Shown: one piece after another, positions 26,437-35,843 of the stretch
How positions within the stretch are numbered: position 1 is the first letter of the stretch
Layout: every line of letters begins with the position of its first letter
Assembly: GCA_001914535.1 (NCBI GenBank)
Contig: MNCR01000007.1
Coordinates: 1-35,843, forward strand
Direction of reading: 5' to 3'
Source: Candidatus Rokubacteria bacterium 13_2_20CM_69_15_1
GTDB taxonomy: Bacteria; Methylomirabilota; Methylomirabilia; Rokubacteriales; CSP1-6
Length of the DNA: 35,843 nucleotides
Notes under the pieces: generated by a model
Database searches by the model: none
What the model was told of the DNA's origin: nothing
The model's input: only the letters and a program-made list of their open reading frames with translations
Made by a program: the position numbers and the translations under genes

Positions 26437-27714
26437 CTAACCGCGCGAGACCTTCCAGGAGTTGATCCAGTCGAAGAGCTTCGTGCCCGCGGGCTTCATC
26501 GCCACCTTCGTCGAGACGACCTCGACGGGGCTGATGGTGGCGAAGTCGTAGGGGTTCCGGTGGGTCGTGATCCCCTGGTAGAAGGCGCACATCTGGACGT
26601 GGTCCTCTCGCCAGCTCCGCCTGCCCGAGAGCGACTCGACCTCGATGCCCTCGAGCGCCCTGGCGACGGCCGCCTTCTCGGGCCACTTCCCGCTCTGCGC
26701 CGCGGCCTTCTCGACGGCGGCCTTGTAGGACTCGGCGCAGAAATAGGCGTGGTCGCACTCGTACGGCGGGTACTCGCCGTGCCTGGCTTTGTACTCGCGG
26801 ACGAACTGCTTGAGGAGCGCACTGCCCTTCGGGTCGTCGAAGTACATCGTGTTGTAGCCGAGCAAGAGCCCTTCCGGCGTGAACTCCTTTTTGAGCGAGT
26901 CGTGGACGCCGCCCGCCGTCGTGAAGACGCCCTTCATCGTCTTGAAGAGGCCGACCGCCGTGGCCTGCTTCATGATGATCGTCGCGTCCCCCGACCAGAA
27001 CGAGCACATGAGGAGGTCCGCCTTCGATTGCTGGATCGCGGCGATGTGCGAGGTGAAGTCGGTGACGCCGAGCTTGGGAAAGAGCTCGAGCACGAAGCGC
27101 ACGTCGGGCGCGTACTTCTTGAGGACGGCCTTGTAGGACTCCCAGCAGTCGTGACCGTAGGAGTAATCGTTGCCGATGCCGGCGACGGTCTTGATCCCCT
27201 TGAAGTACTTGGCGGTGAGCATGCCGGCCACGATCGCCTCGACTTCGTTGTCGACGCTCTTGAAGGCCCACGTGGGGTGGGGCATCGTCTCCTCGACGCC
27301 CTTCTGCGTGGTGCCGTCCCACGAGAGCCAGGGGGTCGCGAGATCTTCCGCCACCGGCCCGAGCGCCAGCGTCACGCCGGTGGAAATGCCGCCGAGCACC
27401 GCCTGCACCTTGTCCTGGAGGACGAGCTTGCGGTAGCGCTCGACCGTGTCCTTCGGGTTCGACTCCTCTTCGACGACCAGTTGCACGGTCCGTCCGAGGA
27501 TCCCGCCGGCTCTGTTGACCCGATCGACCCACCACTCGGTCCCGCGCAGCCCCGCGGCGCCCACGGGCGCCGCGATGCCCGCGCGGATCGTGAGCACGCC
27601 GACCTTCACGGGGCCGCCGGCCTGGGCGCGCGCCGGTGGTCCGTCGAGCCGCACCGTCGCGACCGCGGCCCCGGTGGACGCGAGCCTGAGAAAGCTTCGA
27701 CGAGTCGTTCTCAT
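26437..27714 (-). CDS. Branched-chain amino-acid-type ABC substrate-binding protein with Tat-like signal
   Basis: MRTTRRSFLRLASTGAAVATVRL (twin Arg) then VKVGVLTIRAGIAAPVGAAGLRGTEWWVDRVNRAGGILGRTVQLVVEEESNPKDTVERYRKLV. Confidence 0.9.
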   Translation of the reverse strand: MRTTRRSFLRLASTGAAVATVRLDGPPARAQAGGPVKVGVLTIRAGIAAPVGAAGLRGTEWWVDRVNRAGGILGRTVQLVVEEESNPKDTVERYRKLVLQDKVQAVLGGISTGVTLALGPVAEDLATPWLSWDGTTQKGVEETMPHPTWAFKSVDNEVEAIVAGMLTAKYFKGIKTVAGIGNDYSYGHDCWESYKAVLKKYAPDVRFVLELFPKLGVTDFTSHIAAIQQSKADLLMCSFWSGDATIIMKQATAVGLFKTMKGVFTTAGGVHDSLKKEFTPEGLLLGYNTMYFDDPKGSALLKQFVREYKARHGEYPPYECDHAYFCAESYKAAVEKAAAQSGKWPEKAAVARALEGIEVESLSGRRSWREDHVQMCAFYQGITTHRNPYDFATISPVEVVSTKVAMKPAGTKLFDWINSWKVSRG

Positions 27715-27887: not shown

Positions 27888-30131
27888 ATGCACGTCCGAT
27901 TCTGGGGCACGCGAGGCTCCATCGCCACGCCGGGAGGCAGGACCGCCGTCTACGGCGGTAACACGTCGTGCACCGAGGTCCGCGCCGCCGACGGGACCGT
28001 CGTCGTCCTCGACTGCGGCACCGGCGCCCGCGAGCTCGGACTCCACCTCGTGCGGACCGTGCCCCAGCCGATGCGACTCCATCTCTTCATCGGCCACACG
28101 CATTGGGACCACATCCAGGGGTTTCCGTTCTTCGTCCCCGCGTTCCTGCCCGGCGCGGAGCTGAACGTCTACGCGCCCGTCGGCTTCCAGCGGAGCCTCG
28201 AGGACGCGATGGCGGGGCAGATGGAGTACGCGTACTTCCCCGTGAAGCTCCGCGAGCTGCGGAGTCGCATCCACTACACGGAGCTCGACGAAGGCTTCCT
28301 CCGCGTCGGGGACGTGCTGGTGGAGACGCAGTACCTGAACCACACAGCGCCGACGATCGCGTACCGGTTGTCCAGCGACGGCGCGACGGTCGCCTACGTG
28401 ACCGACCACGAACCGTTCTGGGGCGTGCCGGGCCGGGTGTCGCGGCACCCCGGCGACGAGCGTCACATCGCGTTCTTGCGCGGCGCCGACCTCGTCATCC
28501 ACGACGCCCAGTACACCGAGGACGAGTATCGGAGCAAGGTCGGCTGGGGGCACAGCCCCCTCGAGTATGCGGTGGACGTCTCGCTGGCGGCGGGCGTGCG
28601 CCGTCTCGTCCTCTTCCACCACGACCCGCAGCACGACGACGCGGCCGTGCAAAGCATCGAGGCGCGTGCGCAGGCGCGCGCGACCGCGCCCGGGCCGGGG
28701 CTCGAGGTGCTCGCCGCGCGTGAGGGGCTCGAGCTCGAGGTGCGCGGCAACGGGACGGCACGCGACGTGGCCGCCGCCTCTGCGCTTCGGCACCGGGAGG
28801 TCGCGGGCGGGCGCGTGCTGGTCGTCAGCCGCGACGACACGGAGGTCGCCGCGATCCAGGAGATCCTGAGCGAGGATACCCTCCTCCTGCTCCGCCTTCC
28901 GGACATGCCGTCGGTGCTCAGCCGGGGGTCCGAACTCCTGCCGGACCTGGCGATCATCGACCGGGAGTTGCTCGACAGCGAGGGCGCGGGCGCCCTCGAC
29001 ACGCTGCGGGCGCGCCTGGGACGGGCGAACTTCCCCGTCGTCGTGCTCGCCGACGGCTCGGCCCCGGCCGACGCTGTCGGCTGGGGCGAAGCGTCGTCCA
29101 CCGATTACCTCGCCCGGCCCTTCAGTCCGCCGATGCTACGGGCGCGGGTCCGCGCGTGGCTCTCGCGCACGCTGACGGCCGACGGCCCACGCGGGACGCG
29201 GGCGCGCCCGGTCGAAGGCATCGAGCGCCAGGGCGGCCGGGAGCGCTGCGCGGCCCTCCTCGCGTCGGTGCCGCTCTTCGCCGCGCTCACGAATGAGCAG
29301 CGCGAGTCGTTGCTCGCACACGCGTCCGAGGAGGTCTTCCCGGCGGGGCGCTCGATCATCCAGGAGGGCGATGCGTCGGACCGCCTCTTCGTGATCCTCG
29401 CTGGTCGCGCGCGCGTGCTCGAGGTCGCTCACGGCAGTCCCGCGGAGGTGATCCTCGGCGAGCTCGGCCAGGGTGAGATCCTGGGCGAGCTCACCGCCAT
29501 CCGCCACCAGCCGCGGTCGGCCACCGTCGTGGCGGTCGAGCGGACGCACTGTCTCGTGCTCGACGCGGACGACTTCGGGCGCGCGCTCCAGACCTCGGTG
29601 GGGCTCGCGCTCGCCCTGCTGCGGATGGTCGCCGGGCGGCTGGACGAGGCCGACCGGCAGCTCTCGCGGTACGCGCCCGATCCGGTGACGGGGCTCACGA
29701 GCCGTCGCGCCTTCCACGACCAGTACCGGCGCCTTGCGGCCGTGGCCCGCCGGCGCGGCACCGGCGCGCTGATGCTCGTCCTCGACGTGGTCCAGCTGAG
29801 GGCGATCAACGACCGCTTCGGCTACGGCGTCGGTGACGACGTCCTGCGCGCCGTGGCCGACGCGTTGATCGAGGCCACGCGCACCACGGACCTCGTCGCC
29901 CGCCACGGGAGCGACGAATTCGCGGTCTTCCTCCCCGACGCGGCGCCCACCTCGGCCGACCTCATCGTGGCCCGCGTGCGCGACAAGGTCGCGGCGCTGG
30001 CGGCCAAGCGCGGTCTGCCGGTGGACCATATCCGCTGCAACGTCGGCGTTGCCCACAGCCAGTCGCCTCCGGAGACGTTCGACGAGCTGCTGCGCGAGGC
30101 GGACGCGGACATGCATCGGACGAAGGCGTAG
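27888..30131 (+). CDS. Multidomain signalling protein: MBL-fold hydrolase + receiver-like domain + cyclic-nucleotide-binding domain + GGDEF (GSDEF) domain
   Basis: MHVRFWGTRGSIATPGGRTAVYGGNTSCTEV...HTHWDHIQGFPFF (MBL); GGRVLVVSRDDTEVAAIQEIL...PDLAIIDREL...DYLARPFSPPML (REC-like); FPAGRSIIQEGDASDRLFVILAGRARV...GELTAIRHQPRSATVVA (cNMP); DPVTGLTSRRAF...RTTDLVARHGSDEFAVFLP (GGDEF). Confidence 0.92.
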   Translation: MHVRFWGTRGSIATPGGRTAVYGGNTSCTEVRAADGTVVVLDCGTGARELGLHLVRTVPQPMRLHLFIGHTHWDHIQGFPFFVPAFLPGAELNVYAPVGFQRSLEDAMAGQMEYAYFPVKLRELRSRIHYTELDEGFLRVGDVLVETQYLNHTAPTIAYRLSSDGATVAYVTDHEPFWGVPGRVSRHPGDERHIAFLRGADLVIHDAQYTEDEYRSKVGWGHSPLEYAVDVSLAAGVRRLVLFHHDPQHDDAAVQSIEARAQARATAPGPGLEVLAAREGLELEVRGNGTARDVAAASALRHREVAGGRVLVVSRDDTEVAAIQEILSEDTLLLLRLPDMPSVLSRGSELLPDLAIIDRELLDSEGAGALDTLRARLGRANFPVVVLADGSAPADAVGWGEASSTDYLARPFSPPMLRARVRAWLSRTLTADGPRGTRARPVEGIERQGGRERCAALLASVPLFAALTNEQRESLLAHASEEVFPAGRSIIQEGDASDRLFVILAGRARVLEVAHGSPAEVILGELGQGEILGELTAIRHQPRSATVVAVERTHCLVLDADDFGRALQTSVGLALALLRMVAGRLDEADRQLSRYAPDPVTGLTSRRAFHDQYRRLAAVARRRGTGALMLVLDVVQLRAINDRFGYGVGDDVLRAVADALIEATRTTDLVARHGSDEFAVFLPDAAPTSADLIVARVRDKVAALAAKRGLPVDHIRCNVGVAHSQSPPETFDELLREADADMHRTKA

Positions 30132-30157: not shown

Positions 30158-30901
30158 TCAACGGCGCGTCTTCCGCTCGACGAAAGCGCGGATCCGCGCG
30201 CGCGCGTCCGGGCTCGTGCGGAGCGCGGCGCCGTACGCCTCGGGGCCGCGCCCCCGCTCGCCCCTCCGGATCGCCGCCACGATCTCCTTCGTCGCCGCGA
30301 GGCCGGCGCGCGGCGCGCGCGCGATGTCGGCCGCGAGCGCGGCCACGCTCGCCTCGAGCGTGGCCGAGGCGACGACGCGGTTGACCAGCCCCATGTGGAG
30401 CGCCTCGCTCGCACGGATCGTCCGGCCGGTCAGCAGGAGCTCGCGCGCCCAGCCGCCCGCGACGACGTCGAGCAACCGCGCGATGCCGTAGGCGGGGTTG
30501 AAGCCAAGCGTGACCTCGGGGAGGCCAAAGCGCGCCCGGTCGGAGGCCACACGGAGGTCCTGCGCGACCGCGAGCATGAGGCCGCCGCCGAGCGCCCACC
30601 CGTCGATCGCGGCGATCGAAACTTGTGGCAGCCCGGCGAAGCGGTCGAGGAGCGCCGCCTGCCGGGTCGCCAGGGCCTCGGCCTCGTCCCCGCTGAGCGT
30701 CACCATCTCGGCGATGTCGTTGCCGGCGCAGAAGGCCCGGCCGCGGCCAGCGACGACCAGGACGGCGACGTCGTCCATGGCGGCCACTCGTGTCAGCGCC
30801 TCCTCGAGCGCGCCCGTCAGGGCGCGGTCGAGCGCGTTGAGCGCCGCGGGGCGGTTGAGGCGGAGCCAGGCGACGCGGTCGGTCGTGTCGAGCTCGATCA
30901 A
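30158..30901 (-). CDS. Enoyl-CoA hydratase/isomerase family protein
   Basis: VAWLRLNRPAALNALDRALTGAL, AFCAGNDIAEM, AAIDGWALGGGLMLAVAQDLRVAS, FGLPEVTLGFNPAYGIARLLDVVAG. TTG start overlaps the upstream stop. Confidence 0.9.
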   Translation of the reverse strand: MIELDTTDRVAWLRLNRPAALNALDRALTGALEEALTRVAAMDDVAVLVVAGRGRAFCAGNDIAEMVTLSGDEAEALATRQAALLDRFAGLPQVSIAAIDGWALGGGLMLAVAQDLRVASDRARFGLPEVTLGFNPAYGIARLLDVVAGGWARELLLTGRTIRASEALHMGLVNRVVASATLEASVAALAADIARAPRAGLAATKEIVAAIRRGERGRGPEAYGAALRTSPDARARIRAFVERKTRR

Positions 30902-32265
30902 AAGGAGCTCCCCTTCGTGTCGGCCAGGTACTCGGCCTTGGCGCGCTCGAGCTCGGCGATGATCGCCTGCCGCTCGGTCGTGAGGCGTCGGGCGGCGTGC
31001 TCGCGCGTGAGCGCGAGGACGGTGAAACGGAGGCGGCTCGTGAAGCGGCCCGCCCCGACCCAGTACCGGTAGGCGACGACGCCCGAGAGCGGGAGCGACA
31101 CCGCGAAGGCCAGCGCCCACGCCGCGCCGAGAAGCCGGGCGACCAGCCAGATCTCGATCCCCCAGAAGAGCGGATACGCGACCACCGAGGCGAGGAACCG
31201 CCACGTCGCGTAATCCGTCTCTTTCCGCGCCATCCGGCGCGCCGTCCAGCGCGGGATCCAGTAGGGGAGGAGATTCACGCAGGCGCCGTAGGCGAAGAGG
31301 GGAAAGCCGACGAGCGCCTCCCAGCCGCGCCGGAGGCGCTGGCGGGGACGCGGCGGCTCGGGTCGTGCGCGCACCGCCTCGTCCTTGATGCGGTAGAGCG
31401 CGAGCAGGGCGCGGTAGCCCTGGATCCCGTGCCAGAGCCGCTCGACACGCTCCGGATCGCGCGCCCTGAAGTGGTTGACGGCGTCCACGATGGCCCGCGA
31501 GAGGCGGATCGGGTCGATCTGCTCGGAGCCGAGCCCGCGCTCTTCCGCGAGCTCACGCGCGAGATCCCCGCGGTAGAGCTCCTCGACGGCCCGCACGAGC
31601 TCGGTCGTGTCGATCCGCTCGACGTGCACCACTTCGGCCTCCATCGCCCACTGGATCGCGGTCGTGAGCGCCTCGACGGCCTTCGCCGGGTCCCGGCGGT
31701 ACGCGTCGAGGTACGGCGTGACCGGCACGGGTGGGCCGAACGACACGAGCACGCGTCCCCGGAACGACTTGCGCGCCTCGAAGCTGAGCCCCACGGGGAC
31801 CACGCCGAGCTCGCCGGGTCGCTCGGTTTCGTGGGCGAGCGCGATGCGTGCCGCGCCCGTCTTGATGCGCTGGACGCGCGTTTCTGCGTGCGTCGTCCCC
31901 TCGGGGTAGATCGCGACCAGGCGCCCCTCGGCGAGCGCCGCGGCGCACGCCGCGAACGTGTCGACGTGCGTGTCCAGCGTTCGTGGGTCGTCCCCTTTGC
32001 GATAGACGGGGATCGCCCCGCAGGCCCCGAGGAACCGCGCGACGAGCGGGTGACGGAAGAGCGCGGCGGTGGCGAGGTAGTGGACCTTCCGCCGCACGGT
32101 GGCGCCGACCAGCAGCGAGTCGATCAAGTTGTTCGGGTGGTTGATGCAGAGGAGCACCGGGCCGGCGTCGGGCACCCGCTCGGGATGGCGTGGGTCCACC
32201 GACTTGAAGAAGAACCAGAGCCAGAAGCGAGCGGTCGCGCGGACGAGCCGGTAGAACCGATCCAT
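30898..32265 (-). CDS. PlsC-like 1-acyl-glycerol-3-phosphate acyltransferase family protein with C-terminal membrane segments
   Basis: GPVLLCINHPNNLIDSLLVGATVRRKVHYLATAALF...IPVYRKGDD...VAIYPEGTTHAETRVQRIKTGAARIAL. Confidence 0.88.
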   Translation of the reverse strand: MDRFYRLVRATARFWLWFFFKSVDPRHPERVPDAGPVLLCINHPNNLIDSLLVGATVRRKVHYLATAALFRHPLVARFLGACGAIPVYRKGDDPRTLDTHVDTFAACAAALAEGRLVAIYPEGTTHAETRVQRIKTGAARIALAHETERPGELGVVPVGLSFEARKSFRGRVLVSFGPPVPVTPYLDAYRRDPAKAVEALTTAIQWAMEAEVVHVERIDTTELVRAVEELYRGDLARELAEERGLGSEQIDPIRLSRAIVDAVNHFRARDPERVERLWHGIQGYRALLALYRIKDEAVRARPEPPRPRQRLRRGWEALVGFPLFAYGACVNLLPYWIPRWTARRMARKETDYATWRFLASVVAYPLFWGIEIWLVARLLGAAWALAFAVSLPLSGVVAYRYWVGAGRFTSRLRFTVLALTREHAARRLTTERQAIIAELERAKAEYLADTKGSSF

Positions 32266-32300: not shown

Positions 32301-32855
32301 TCAAGGAGTCTGATCCCGCAGCGCGTGGCGCTTCACGAGGTCTTCGAAGCTCTCGACGGCCAGGGCCCTCGCCCACGTGGCGCCCTCCGACTCCCGGCCG
32401 TAGGCCTCGGCCATGTACACGGTCGCCTCCTCCTTCGTCCGGAACAGACGCCAGAGATGGCCTTTGCCGCCGCCGACCCGCCGGAGGTTGAAGACCGGGT
32501 CGGCATGTGATGCTGGCTCGAAGACGTTCGCCTGGCCGAAGCGGTCGAGCGTGATCCACGCCGCGGCAACCCCGCGCGCGGAGACGACCCGCGCGCGGAG
32601 CGACTCCTCGCGCGGGAGCGACTCGATGTCGCGGAGATGCGGACCGTAGTACACGGCCACGGAGTCGGCGGGCAGCGAGAGCCTGACGGGTAGCGGCGTC
32701 CCGGCGCCGTCGAGAAGCGCCTTCGACTCCTCGCCGAGCCAGACCGCGCCAGGCTCGACGAGGTCGGCCCACGCCTCGACGACCAGTCCCTTGGGGATCA
32801 GCCCCCGCCGCCGCGCGATCTCGTCCTTGTCCGTCGTGAGGTACAACCGGCTCAC
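32301..32855 (-). CDS. Conserved-looking hypothetical protein
   Basis: VSRLYLTTDKDEIARRRGLIPKGLVVEAWADLVEPGAVWLGEESKALLDG...; GTG start overlaps the prpF stop (GTGA). No family recognised. Confidence 0.7.
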   Translation of the reverse strand: MSRLYLTTDKDEIARRRGLIPKGLVVEAWADLVEPGAVWLGEESKALLDGAGTPLPVRLSLPADSVAVYYGPHLRDIESLPREESLRARVVSARGVAAAWITLDRFGQANVFEPASHADPVFNLRRVGGGKGHLWRLFRTKEEATVYMAEAYGRESEGATWARALAVESFEDLVKRHALRDQTP

Positions 32856-33973
32856 GGGATGCGGAGGAAGCCCTCCATGAGGCGGCGCGCCGTCCGGTAG
32901 ACGGTGACGCGCTCGGCCCAGGGCGCCCCGTCGCGGACGCGCACCGCGGCATCGATGGGCAGGACCCCCGACGGATGGCCGAGCCTGAGTGGACCCGCGG
33001 GTGACCTGCCGGAGGCACGCGTGGCTCCGGTCGCGCACTCATGAACGAGAGTCCCATCCAGGCGCGCGGCGACGGCGAGACACATCGCCGCGGTGAGCGC
33101 GAACGCGCGGTGGCAGTTGCCCATCGAGATCACGCGCGCGACGAGGTCGACCTGGTCGAGGGGGTAGCGCGCCCCGTCGAGCGCGGTGAAATCGGTCGGC
33201 GGCGCGACGATGGCGATCTTCGGCACGGCAGAGCTCCCCGGGATCCCCATCCGCCGCGCCGCCTCCGCGCGGATCGCCTCGAGGCGGGCCGACAACGAGC
33301 GATCGGCGTCGACGGCCTGCGGAGTCTCCGTGCCTGCGAGGCCGAGATCCTTGGCGCGCACGAAGACGACCGGGTTGGTCGCGTCCACGAGCGAAGCCTC
33401 GACGCCGTCCACCAGATCGCGCGGCCTCCCCGTCGGCAGCAGGCGCCCGGTCCCCGCGCCGCCCGGGTCGAGGAAGTCGAGCGCGATCCGGGCGCCACGC
33501 CCCGGGACGCCCGCGAGCTCGAAATCGCCCTCCACCGCGGCCTCGCCGTCCTTCACGGGGACGTGCGCGACGATGAGCTTCCGCGTGTTGGTGTTGTGGA
33601 TGCGCACGCGCGTCTCGCCCGCGACCCCGGGCACCAGGCGCTCGTCGATGGCGAAGGGCCCGACGGCCGAGGAGCAGTTGCCGCAGTTACCCTGGTAATC
33701 CACGACCGGGTTCTTCACGTCGACCTGGGCGAAGGTGTAGTCCACGTCGGCGCCCGGGTGCGACGGCGGGCCGATGATGCACGCCTTGGAGAGCGAGGAG
33801 ATGCCGCCGCCGAGCCCGTCGAGCTGGCGGCCGTACGGGTCGGGACTCCCGAGCGCCGTGAGAAGAATCCGGTCGCGGTCGGGACCGGCGCCCGGCAGGT
33901 CGGTCGCGTGGAAGAAGAGCGCGCGGCTGGTCCCGCCGCGCATGAACACGGCGCGGATCCGTTTCTGGGTCAC
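32852..33973 (-). CDS. prpF: PrpF-like aconitate/2-methylaconitate isomerase family protein
   Basis: IRAVFMRGGTSRALFFHATDLPG, GGGISSLSKACIIGPPSHPGADVDYTFAQVDVKNPVVDYQGNCGNCSSAVGPFAIDERLV. Confidence 0.92.
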   Translation of the reverse strand: MTQKRIRAVFMRGGTSRALFFHATDLPGAGPDRDRILLTALGSPDPYGRQLDGLGGGISSLSKACIIGPPSHPGADVDYTFAQVDVKNPVVDYQGNCGNCSSAVGPFAIDERLVPGVAGETRVRIHNTNTRKLIVAHVPVKDGEAAVEGDFELAGVPGRGARIALDFLDPGGAGTGRLLPTGRPRDLVDGVEASLVDATNPVVFVRAKDLGLAGTETPQAVDADRSLSARLEAIRAEAARRMGIPGSSAVPKIAIVAPPTDFTALDGARYPLDQVDLVARVISMGNCHRAFALTAAMCLAVAARLDGTLVHECATGATRASGRSPAGPLRLGHPSGVLPIDAAVRVRDGAPWAERVTVYRTARRLMEGFLRIP

Positions 33974-35843
33974 GCGCGTGCTCGCGTGTGCGCCAGGAGG
34001 CCGCCCGCGAGGAGAATGTCGCGCTCTCGCGCCGTCAGCACGCATGAGGCCGAGAAGCGCCGGCCCGTGCGCGTGTCGAGGACGGGCACGCGCTCGCCCG
34101 CAGCGAGCGCGGCGCGCAGGCCGTCGAGGCGCAACCGGCCGCCCGCCTCGATCGCCTCGTACGACGCGGGGTCGTCGAGCGTCAGCGGCACGATGCCCCA
34201 GTTGATCAGGTTCGCCCGGTGGATCCGCGCGAACGACCTGGCGAGCACCACCCGCACGCCGAGATACATCGGGCCGATCGCCGCGACCTCGCGCGAGGAG
34301 CCCTGACCGTAGTGCTCGCCCGCGACGAGGATCCCGCGCCCGGCCGCCTTCGCGCGCGGGACGAACTCCGGGTCGAGGTATTTGAAGCAGAACTCCGCGA
34401 TCGCCGGGATGTTGGAGCGGAAGACGAGGATCGCGGCGCCGGCAGGGGAAATGTCGTCGGTCGAGACCTTGTCGCCGAGCTTCAGCAGCACGGGAGCTTC
34501 GAGCGTCTCGGCAACGGCTTCACCCAGCGGAACTGACTTGATGTTCGGCCCGCGGATGACCTCGCCCTGGCCGTCCGGCATGACGAGCCCTGCACCCGAG
34601 GCGGCGAAGCTCTCGGGCAGGTAGGCGGCGGCCGGCGCGCCCACCGTCCGCGGGTCGGTGATCGCGCCCGTCAGCGCGGAGGCGGCCGCGGTGACCGACG
34701 AGCACAGATAGACCTCGTCGCCCTTCACGCCGCTCCGTCCCGGGAAGTTGCGGTTGAAGGCGCGGAGACTCTTCGTGCCGGCCGCCGGGACGTGGCCGAT
34801 GCCCGCGCACGAGCCGCACGTCGGCTCGGAGAGGAGCGCGCCGGAGGCGAGGAGGTCGGCGAGCAGCCCTTCGCGCGCCATCGTCTCGAGGATGCGGTGG
34901 CTCCCCGGGAACAGGACGAACGAGACGTCGGGGTGCACGTGCCGGCCCTGGAGCACCTGGGTCACCGCCCACATGTCCTCCCACGAGCCGTTGGTGCACG
35001 AGCCCACCATCACCTGCTCGACCTTCGTTCCTTCGACCTCCTCGACGGGCACGACGCGATCGGGCGAGCCCGGCAGAGCCACGAGGGGGGTGATCGCGGA
35101 AAGGTCGAGCTCGAGGCGAGCGTCGTACTCGGCGTCCTCGTCGGCCGCCTGTGGCGTCCACGCGTGCTTCCGGTGGAGGCGACGGAAGTAGTCGCGGGTC
35201 ACCGCGTCCGACGGGAAGAGGCTCGTCGTCAGGCCGAGCTCGGCGCCCATGTTGGCGATGGTCATCCGCTGCGGGAGCGAGAGCGAGGCGACGCCCGGCC
35301 CGGCGTACTCGAAGACCTTCCCCGCGCCGCCCCGCACGCTCAGACGGCGGAGCAGCTCGAGGATCACGTCCTTCGCCGTCACCCACGGCTGGAGCTCGCC
35401 CGTGAGCCACACGCGGACGACCTCGGGCATCGCGAAGGCGTACGGGCCGCCGCCCATCGCCACGGCGACGTCGAGGCCGCCCGCGCCGATCGCCAGCATG
35501 CCGGCGGCGCCGCAGAGCGGGGTGTGGCTGTCGGTGCCGAGCAGCGTCTGCCCGGGCGCCGCGAAGCTCTCGAGGTGCACCTGGTGGCAGATCCCGTTGC
35601 CTGGCTTGGAGAAAATCGCGCCGTACCGGCGCGCGGCGGTCTGGAGGTAGCGGTGGTCGTCGGAGTTACGCGAGTCCACCTGGTAGACGTTGTGGTCGAC
35701 GTACGCGACGACGCACGACGGCGTGACGCGCGGAAAGCCCATCGCCTCGAACTGGAGCAAGGCCATCGTGCCGTTCGTGTCGGTGAGGAGCACCTGGTCC
35801 ACGGCGAGGCCGATCTCCTCGCCCGCGACGGGCTTGCCCGCGG
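33970..35843 (-). CDS. Aconitate hydratase family protein (5' end outside window)
   Basis: LLTDTNGTMALLQFEAMG, LLGTDSHTPLCGAAGMLAIGAGGLDVA, MVGSCTNGSWEDM, EPTCGSCAGIGHVP, FNRNFPGRSGVKGDEVYL, GQGSSREVAAIGPMYLGVRVVLARSFARIHRANLINWGI. Frame open to the window edge (AGKPVAGEEIGLAVDQ). Confidence 0.93.
   Translation of the reverse strand, partial: AGKPVAGEEIGLAVDQVLLTDTNGTMALLQFEAMGFPRVTPSCVVAYVDHNVYQVDSRNSDDHRYLQTAARRYGAIFSKPGNGICHQVHLESFAAPGQTLLGTDSHTPLCGAAGMLAIGAGGLDVAVAMGGGPYAFAMPEVVRVWLTGELQPWVTAKDVILELLRRLSVRGGAGKVFEYAGPGVASLSLPQRMTIANMGAELGLTTSLFPSDAVTRDYFRRLHRKHAWTPQAADEDAEYDARLELDLSAITPLVALPGSPDRVVPVEEVEGTKVEQVMVGSCTNGSWEDMWAVTQVLQGRHVHPDVSFVLFPGSHRILETMAREGLLADLLASGALLSEPTCGSCAGIGHVPAAGTKSLRAFNRNFPGRSGVKGDEVYLCSSVTAAASALTGAITDPRTVGAPAAAYLPESFAASGAGLVMPDGQGEVIRGPNIKSVPLGEAVAETLEAPVLLKLGDKVSTDDISPAGAAILVFRSNIPAIAEFCFKYLDPEFVPRAKAAGRGILVAGEHYGQGSSREVAAIGPMYLGVRVVLARSFARIHRANLINWGIVPLTLDDPASYEAIEAGGRLRLDGLRAALAAGERVPVLDTRTGRRFSASCVLTARERDILLAGGLLAHTRARA

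Follow-up and report, generated by a model that had tools for sequence, protein, structure and literature searches.

A four-domain MBL, pseudo-receiver, cNMP-binding and GGDEF protein conserved in Rokubacteria, which probably links two bacterial signalling molecules

The stretch of DNA analysed here, hereafter the window (35,843 nucleotides), belongs to a MAG of a soil bacterium of the Rokubacteria. Its forward strand carries an ORF that starts with ATG and encodes 747 aa without internal stops (Table 1). The first-pass annotation had described this ORF as a fusion of metallo-beta-lactamase (MBL), receiver-like, cNMP-binding and GGDEF domains, and both the reading of the frame and a Pfam search returned the same coordinates and domain order. 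Lactamase_B_2 (1.5e-15), cNMP_binding (aa 482-569, 4.9e-20, 71.7 bits against a cut-off of 27.5) and GGDEF (aa 598-746, 1.1e-28) were detected, while Response_reg was found weakly (aa 310-422, 1.1e-4; 22.8 bits, below the cut-off of 30.2). Across the family, Pfam found the MBL, cNMP and GGDEF domains in each of 23 members and Response_reg in 21 of the 23 at E<=0.01. All four folds are present in a full-length AlphaFold2 model (pLDDT 74, pTM 0.54), in which a long helix (571-593) joins the cNMP domain to GGDEF, the linker 429-449 is of low confidence and the mutual placement of the domains is unreliable. PleD/WspR, RNase Z/YhfI and CRP-type proteins are among the PDB structures whose folds this model matches.

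Table 1. Coordinates of the four-domain ORF, its domains and the flanking genes in the window
Feature	Coordinates	Strand	Evidence or remark
Full ORF, MBL-pseudoREC-cNMP-GGDEF, 747 aa	27888..30131 (stop included)	+	ORF, Pfam, orthologues
MBL domain, aa 1-290	27888..28757	+	Pfam Lactamase_B_2 39-245; AF2 pLDDT 87; invariant metal-site residues
Pseudo-receiver domain, aa 305-428	28800..29171	+	D358 kept; acidic pair = S314/R315; A388; R410
cNMP-binding (CRP-type) domain, aa 456-590	29253..29657	+	Phosphate-binding cassette G533 E534 ... R543 S544 A545
GGDEF domain, aa 591-747	29658..30128	+	GSDEF 674-678; I-site R665/D668 plus R696
Periplasmic binding protein, branched-chain amino acid type ABC transporter	26437..27714	-	Divergent, upstream; kept beside ORF in 6 Rokubacteria loci
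Enoyl-CoA hydratase	30158..31204	-	Convergent, downstream; kept beside ORF in 9 Rokubacteria loci

The four-domain fusion is a real, conserved family. In 95 genomes of the phylum, full-length, co-linear orthologues (83-50% identity) were found in 27 of the 57 Rokubacteria genomes of the host's own family, and 6 more of the 57 have gene fragments consistent with the same gene. Close kin of the ORF are in Candidatus Rokubacteria. Outside the phylum the gene is sporadic: a Nitrospirota search found it in 4 of 295 sampled genomes and an Acidobacteriota search in 2 of 396, both samples including the genomes used as search centres. In Chloroflexota, one Chloroflexi MAG carries an orthologue. A tblastn search of plasmids gave only two distant MBL matches. 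The MAG that holds the window is 76% complete, which could leave room for a misassembled or frameshifted chimera of unrelated genes, a case that the annotation itself had raised. However, dozens of independent assemblies show the same domain order and length between conserved flanking genes, and purifying selection acts on all four domains. Such a chimera is extremely improbable, and misassembly is ruled out by the orthologues and synteny. The flanking genes (transport, enoyl-CoA hydratase, acyltransferase) also indicate vertical inheritance rather than a chimera, since they are conserved within Rokubacteria. Their conservation is confined to that group and they are divergent or convergent; for these reasons no functional partner was found among the neighbouring genes of the loci compared, and the periplasmic binding protein and enoyl-CoA hydratase are positional context, not functional partners. 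Elsewhere in the window, on the reverse strand (32855-35802), the gene of a PrpF-like protein overlaps the end of an aconitase-family gene, and the two are likely a two-gene unit.

The MBL domain has the HxHxDH plus His/Asp/His two-metal site of class II/IIb MBL cyclic nucleotide phosphodiesterases. The HTHWDH motif lies at aa 70-75, as previously read, and H70, H72, D74, H75, H152, D173 and H245 are invariant in 25 of 25 four-domain orthologues and across 80 aligned homologues. An AlphaFold2 model of the domain alone (pLDDT 87, pTM 0.90) matches the folds of RNase Z (1y44), YhfI (6kns), PhnP, the AMP-bound Brucella protein 3qh8 and Apyc1 (7u2r), together with a PhnP-family diphosphatase. The substrate cannot be read from the fold. 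By sequence the domain matches RNase Z and ELAC proteins best, and the RNase Z model scores 79.5 bits against a cut-off of 292.95. In a profile alignment, two conserved blocks are separated by about 30 residues (165-195), versus about 65 in B. subtilis RNase Z (153-218), a stretch which we take to be the position of the tRNA-binding arm. A tRNase Z was rejected because this arm (exosite) region is absent and the score is far under the cut-off; with no room for the arm, a small-molecule phosphodiesterase is favoured. The NCBIfam model of a cyclic-nucleotide-degrading phosphodiesterase, NF041851, aligns end to end (aa 1-261 to model positions 1-236 of 253) at 34.1 bits, so far below its cut-off of 400 that the substrate is a matter of prediction. 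By analogy, the domain is probably a phosphodiesterase for cyclic mononucleotides; YhfI prefers cAMP/cGMP (PMC9117128). Alternatively, its substrate may be RNA, 2',3'-cyclic phosphates, a linear dinucleotide (pGpG, for example) or some metabolite that resembles a nucleotide, the cNMP and GGDEF domains being regulators only. The RNase Z and ELAC matches and the resemblance to PhnP and a PhnP-family diphosphatase point this way, as do MBL domains fused to GAF domains in other phyla, which mean that the substrate need not be a cNMP. Against RNA speak the missing arm region and the low RNase Z score, and we consider another substrate unlikely.

In CRP-type domains the phosphate-binding cassette marks true cNMP binders. 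Here G533 and E534 are found in 25 of 25 orthologues, R543 in 24 and A545 in 23, in agreement with the pattern G-E ... R-(S/T)-A of cNMP-binding domains, and this kept pocket is predicted to bind cAMP or cGMP. In the receiver-like domain, D358 at the phosphoacceptor position and R410 at the Lys position had been recognized before. To these we add the loss of the acidic pair, replaced by S314/R315 in the ORF and lost in all 25 four-domain orthologues. Position 358 is Asp in 22 of the 25, position 388 is Ala in 14 (as in the ORF) and Thr in 11, and position 410 is Lys in 17, so the response-regulator set of acidic pair, Asp, Thr/Ser and Lys is incomplete. Judged by these residues, the domain is a pseudo-receiver; an active phosphoreceiver was rejected because the acidic pair is gone in all members. 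In L129, a two-domain paralogue from the host genus, the receiver is intact (VDDD, D, T, K), which suggests that the receiver degenerated in the longer forms.

The GGDEF domain was scored on a PleD-numbered checklist for diguanylate cyclases (PMC12943098) in the 25 four-domain orthologues. The metal ligands D327 and E370 are present as D633 and D676 (E370 as Asp) and the guanine-recognition residues N335 and D344 as N641 and D650, each in 25 of 25; the L347 position and the DEF residues are invariant too. The RTTD at 665-668, five residues upstream of the GSDEF at 674-678, had been proposed as a c-di-GMP inhibitory site, and this holds, as R665 and D668 (RxxD) and R696 (R390) are kept in 25 of 25, the pattern of an I-site receptor. 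A second arginine, the R313 equivalent, is not conserved. The signature GG(D/E)EF is absent from the ORF, and the second Gly (G369 equivalent) drifts among the orthologues (15 Gly, 6 Ser, 3 Ala and 1 Thr), being Ser in the host genus. For the phosphate contacts K442 and R446 the ORF offers K746 only (Lys or Arg in 21 of 25). Its last residue is 747, one past the K442 equivalent and short of position 750, where R446 would fall; no orthologue checked has an R446 equivalent, and most of them end earlier or carry an unrelated short tail. The F330 position is occupied by Q/H/R/N/K/E, and DxD has lost its second Asp. The host genome encodes two further GGDEF proteins, in which both the signature and the basic tail are kept. 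A Hypr (cGAMP) synthase is not supported, since the D344 position is Asp in all, not Ser, and there is no Hypr signature. With metal, guanine and I-site residues invariant, sensing of GTP or c-di-GMP explains the domain no less well than synthesis does; from its residues, the domain could serve in synthesis, GTP sensing or c-di-GMP sensing.

A maximum-likelihood tree was built from 86 MBL-domain rows (SH-aLRT supports, midpoint root as a convention only). In it, the four-domain proteins all lie on one side of a branch with support 97. Three-domain MBL-REC-cNMP proteins of Rokubacteria are grouped at 99 and joined with the four-domain clade at 96, and MBL-REC and MBL-REC-GAF proteins of many phyla fall outside both groups. 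The simplest order of gain would be MBL, receiver, cNMP and GGDEF. GGDEF was probably added last because the four-domain clade is sister to the MBL-REC-cNMP group, and such an addition makes the MBL domain the likelier core output. Pairwise dN/dS within the genus, although rough and mutually non-independent, stays well under 1 for each of the four domains, with 0.13-0.29 for GGDEF, 0.17-0.29 for MBL and 0.17-0.63 for the cNMP domain, which as a whole evolves faster. On these approximate values, a decaying GGDEF relic is unsupported, as its dN/dS is as low as that of MBL, and this similarity suggests that GGDEF is selected for some function.

The comparison also exposes a large, apparently uncharacterised MBL family fused to receivers and GAF domains in many phyla. 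L031, L056 and L126 are three-domain MBL-REC-cNMP proteins without GGDEF, all from Rokubacteria. Much more numerous are fusions of MBL to a receiver (intact in L129 and L131) or to receiver and GAF, found in Pseudomonadota, Verrucomicrobiota, Actinomycetota, Cyanobacteriota, Myxococcota and others; no characterised member of this MBL-receiver family was found in the literature. Judged by sequence, proteins of the two-domain form resemble response regulators whose output domain is MBL. A second MBL-family gene (L128) is cut by the contig end at the first bases of contig C112 in G000, a genome of the host genus, and the 31 residues that are present are similar to the beginning of L129, the two-domain MBL-REC paralogue. 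Two records are probably mislabelled or contaminated: L097, whose MAG bears the name Klebsiella pneumoniae, groups as sister to a Verrucomicrobia copy, and L069, from a MAG named Halobacteria archaeon, lies beside an Ectothiorhodospiraceae one.

Four members of the genus (G000-G003) were searched for other components of messenger signalling. Class III cyclases gave 4-18 matches per genome, PilZ domains 3-10 and HD-GYP domains 3-6, which makes both messenger systems plausible in these cells. No EAL domain was matched in these four genomes, so c-di-GMP would have to be broken down by HD-GYP proteins or by an enzyme not yet known. That the MBL domain itself hydrolyses c-di-GMP or pGpG under cNMP control is very improbable; if true, it would be a new class of c-di-GMP turnover, neither EAL nor HD-GYP, fused to its own GGDEF.

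The reading that we prefer, tentatively and with somewhat less than even confidence, is a one-chain integrator in which an MBL phosphodiesterase is the output and is tuned both by cNMP and by either GTP or c-di-GMP; its substrates, ligands and direction of control we infer from the observed domains, residues, conservation and phylogeny. The MBL domain would be a two-metal phosphodiesterase, most likely on cAMP or cGMP, and the conserved output. The receiver fold, its phosphorylation chemistry lost, may serve as a structural or relay module. Binding of cAMP or cGMP by the CRP-type domain would set MBL activity, as in Dictyostelium GbpA/GbpB. The late-added GGDEF, with GTP-binding and inhibitory-site residues but an incomplete catalytic set, would be mainly a sensor of GTP or c-di-GMP, its cyclase activity being at most weak. 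However, no biochemical work on any member was found, the MBL sequence is closest to RNase Z and its fold leaves the substrate unread, and the invariance of D327, N335, D344, L347 and DEF exceeds the needs of a pure c-di-GMP sensor. The second Gly is, moreover, kept in most orthologues, and the imperfect GSDEF protein PFLU5960 of Pseudomonas fluorescens is thought to gain activity by a mutation near the active site (PMC4395868).

A diguanylate cyclase that is gated by cNMP and has MBL as an accessory hydrolase would account for the same domains in another way: cAMP or cGMP would switch c-di-GMP synthesis on or off, MBL would remove cNMP or another metabolite, and the state of one messenger would be translated into that of another. 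The predicted helix that leads straight from the cNMP domain into GGDEF fits this gating, as do the invariant metal (D633, D676), guanine (N641, D650) and I-site residues, the 15 orthologues with the second Gly and the low GGDEF dN/dS. There are precedents in the cAMP-activated cyclase Lcd1 (GAF) and the cNMP-gated EAL enzyme Bd1971 (PMC8846402, PMC6717892). Yet the host genus has Ser for the second Gly, no orthologue has the R446 equivalent, and neither the F330 position nor the second Asp of DxD is kept. We regard gated synthesis as a serious rival, somewhat less likely than the integrator. Of the mechanism first proposed, a signalling protein on one chain, its MBL centre and cNMP pocket intact, is supported, while cNMP gating of dinucleotide synthesis is less secure, given the Ser, the absent R446 equivalent and the drift of the second Gly among G/S/A/T. 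As an integrator, the protein probably connects two signalling molecules of bacteria. On one bacterial polypeptide chain, cyclic-mononucleotide hydrolysis and sensing would be combined with a c-di-GMP/GTP module, making the protein a direct crosstalk point between two major bacterial nucleotide messengers.

The architecture looks unreported, although each component domain is known. No paper on it, or on MBL and GGDEF in one chain, was found in the open-licence literature, which is weak evidence of novelty. Every pairwise coupling has a precedent except MBL with GGDEF. Dictyostelium GbpA/GbpB are class IIb MBL phosphodiesterases activated by downstream cNMP domains (PMC11988041). The four-domain protein, which likewise has an MBL catalytic domain followed by a CRP-type cNMP domain, would be their bacterial counterpart, a likeness drawn from descriptions and not from sequence; GbpA/GbpB, however, are eukaryotic, have two cNMP domains and lack receiver and GGDEF. 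B. subtilis YhfI and Apyc1 share the MBL fold and the HxHxDH two-metal centre, but are single-domain proteins of about 250 aa with 17-20% identity in structural alignment. Bd1971 (cNMP-EAL) and Lcd1 (GAF-GGDEF) also have cNMP sensing and c-di-GMP metabolism coupled within a single polypeptide (PMC6717892, PMC8846402), but without MBL; Bd1971 has EAL and not GGDEF, and Lcd1 senses cAMP through GAF. With PleD/WspR the protein has in common the GGDEF fold, the I-site and a receiver fold N-terminal to GGDEF. Unlike them, it has a degenerate receiver, a cNMP domain between receiver and GGDEF, GSDEF and no R446 equivalent. In Caulobacter CC_3396 and in FimX, a degenerate GGDEF acts as a GTP sensor that controls the phosphodiesterase of the same chain (PMC12943098, PMC8846402). 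While that phosphodiesterase is an EAL domain, in the four-domain protein it would be MBL.
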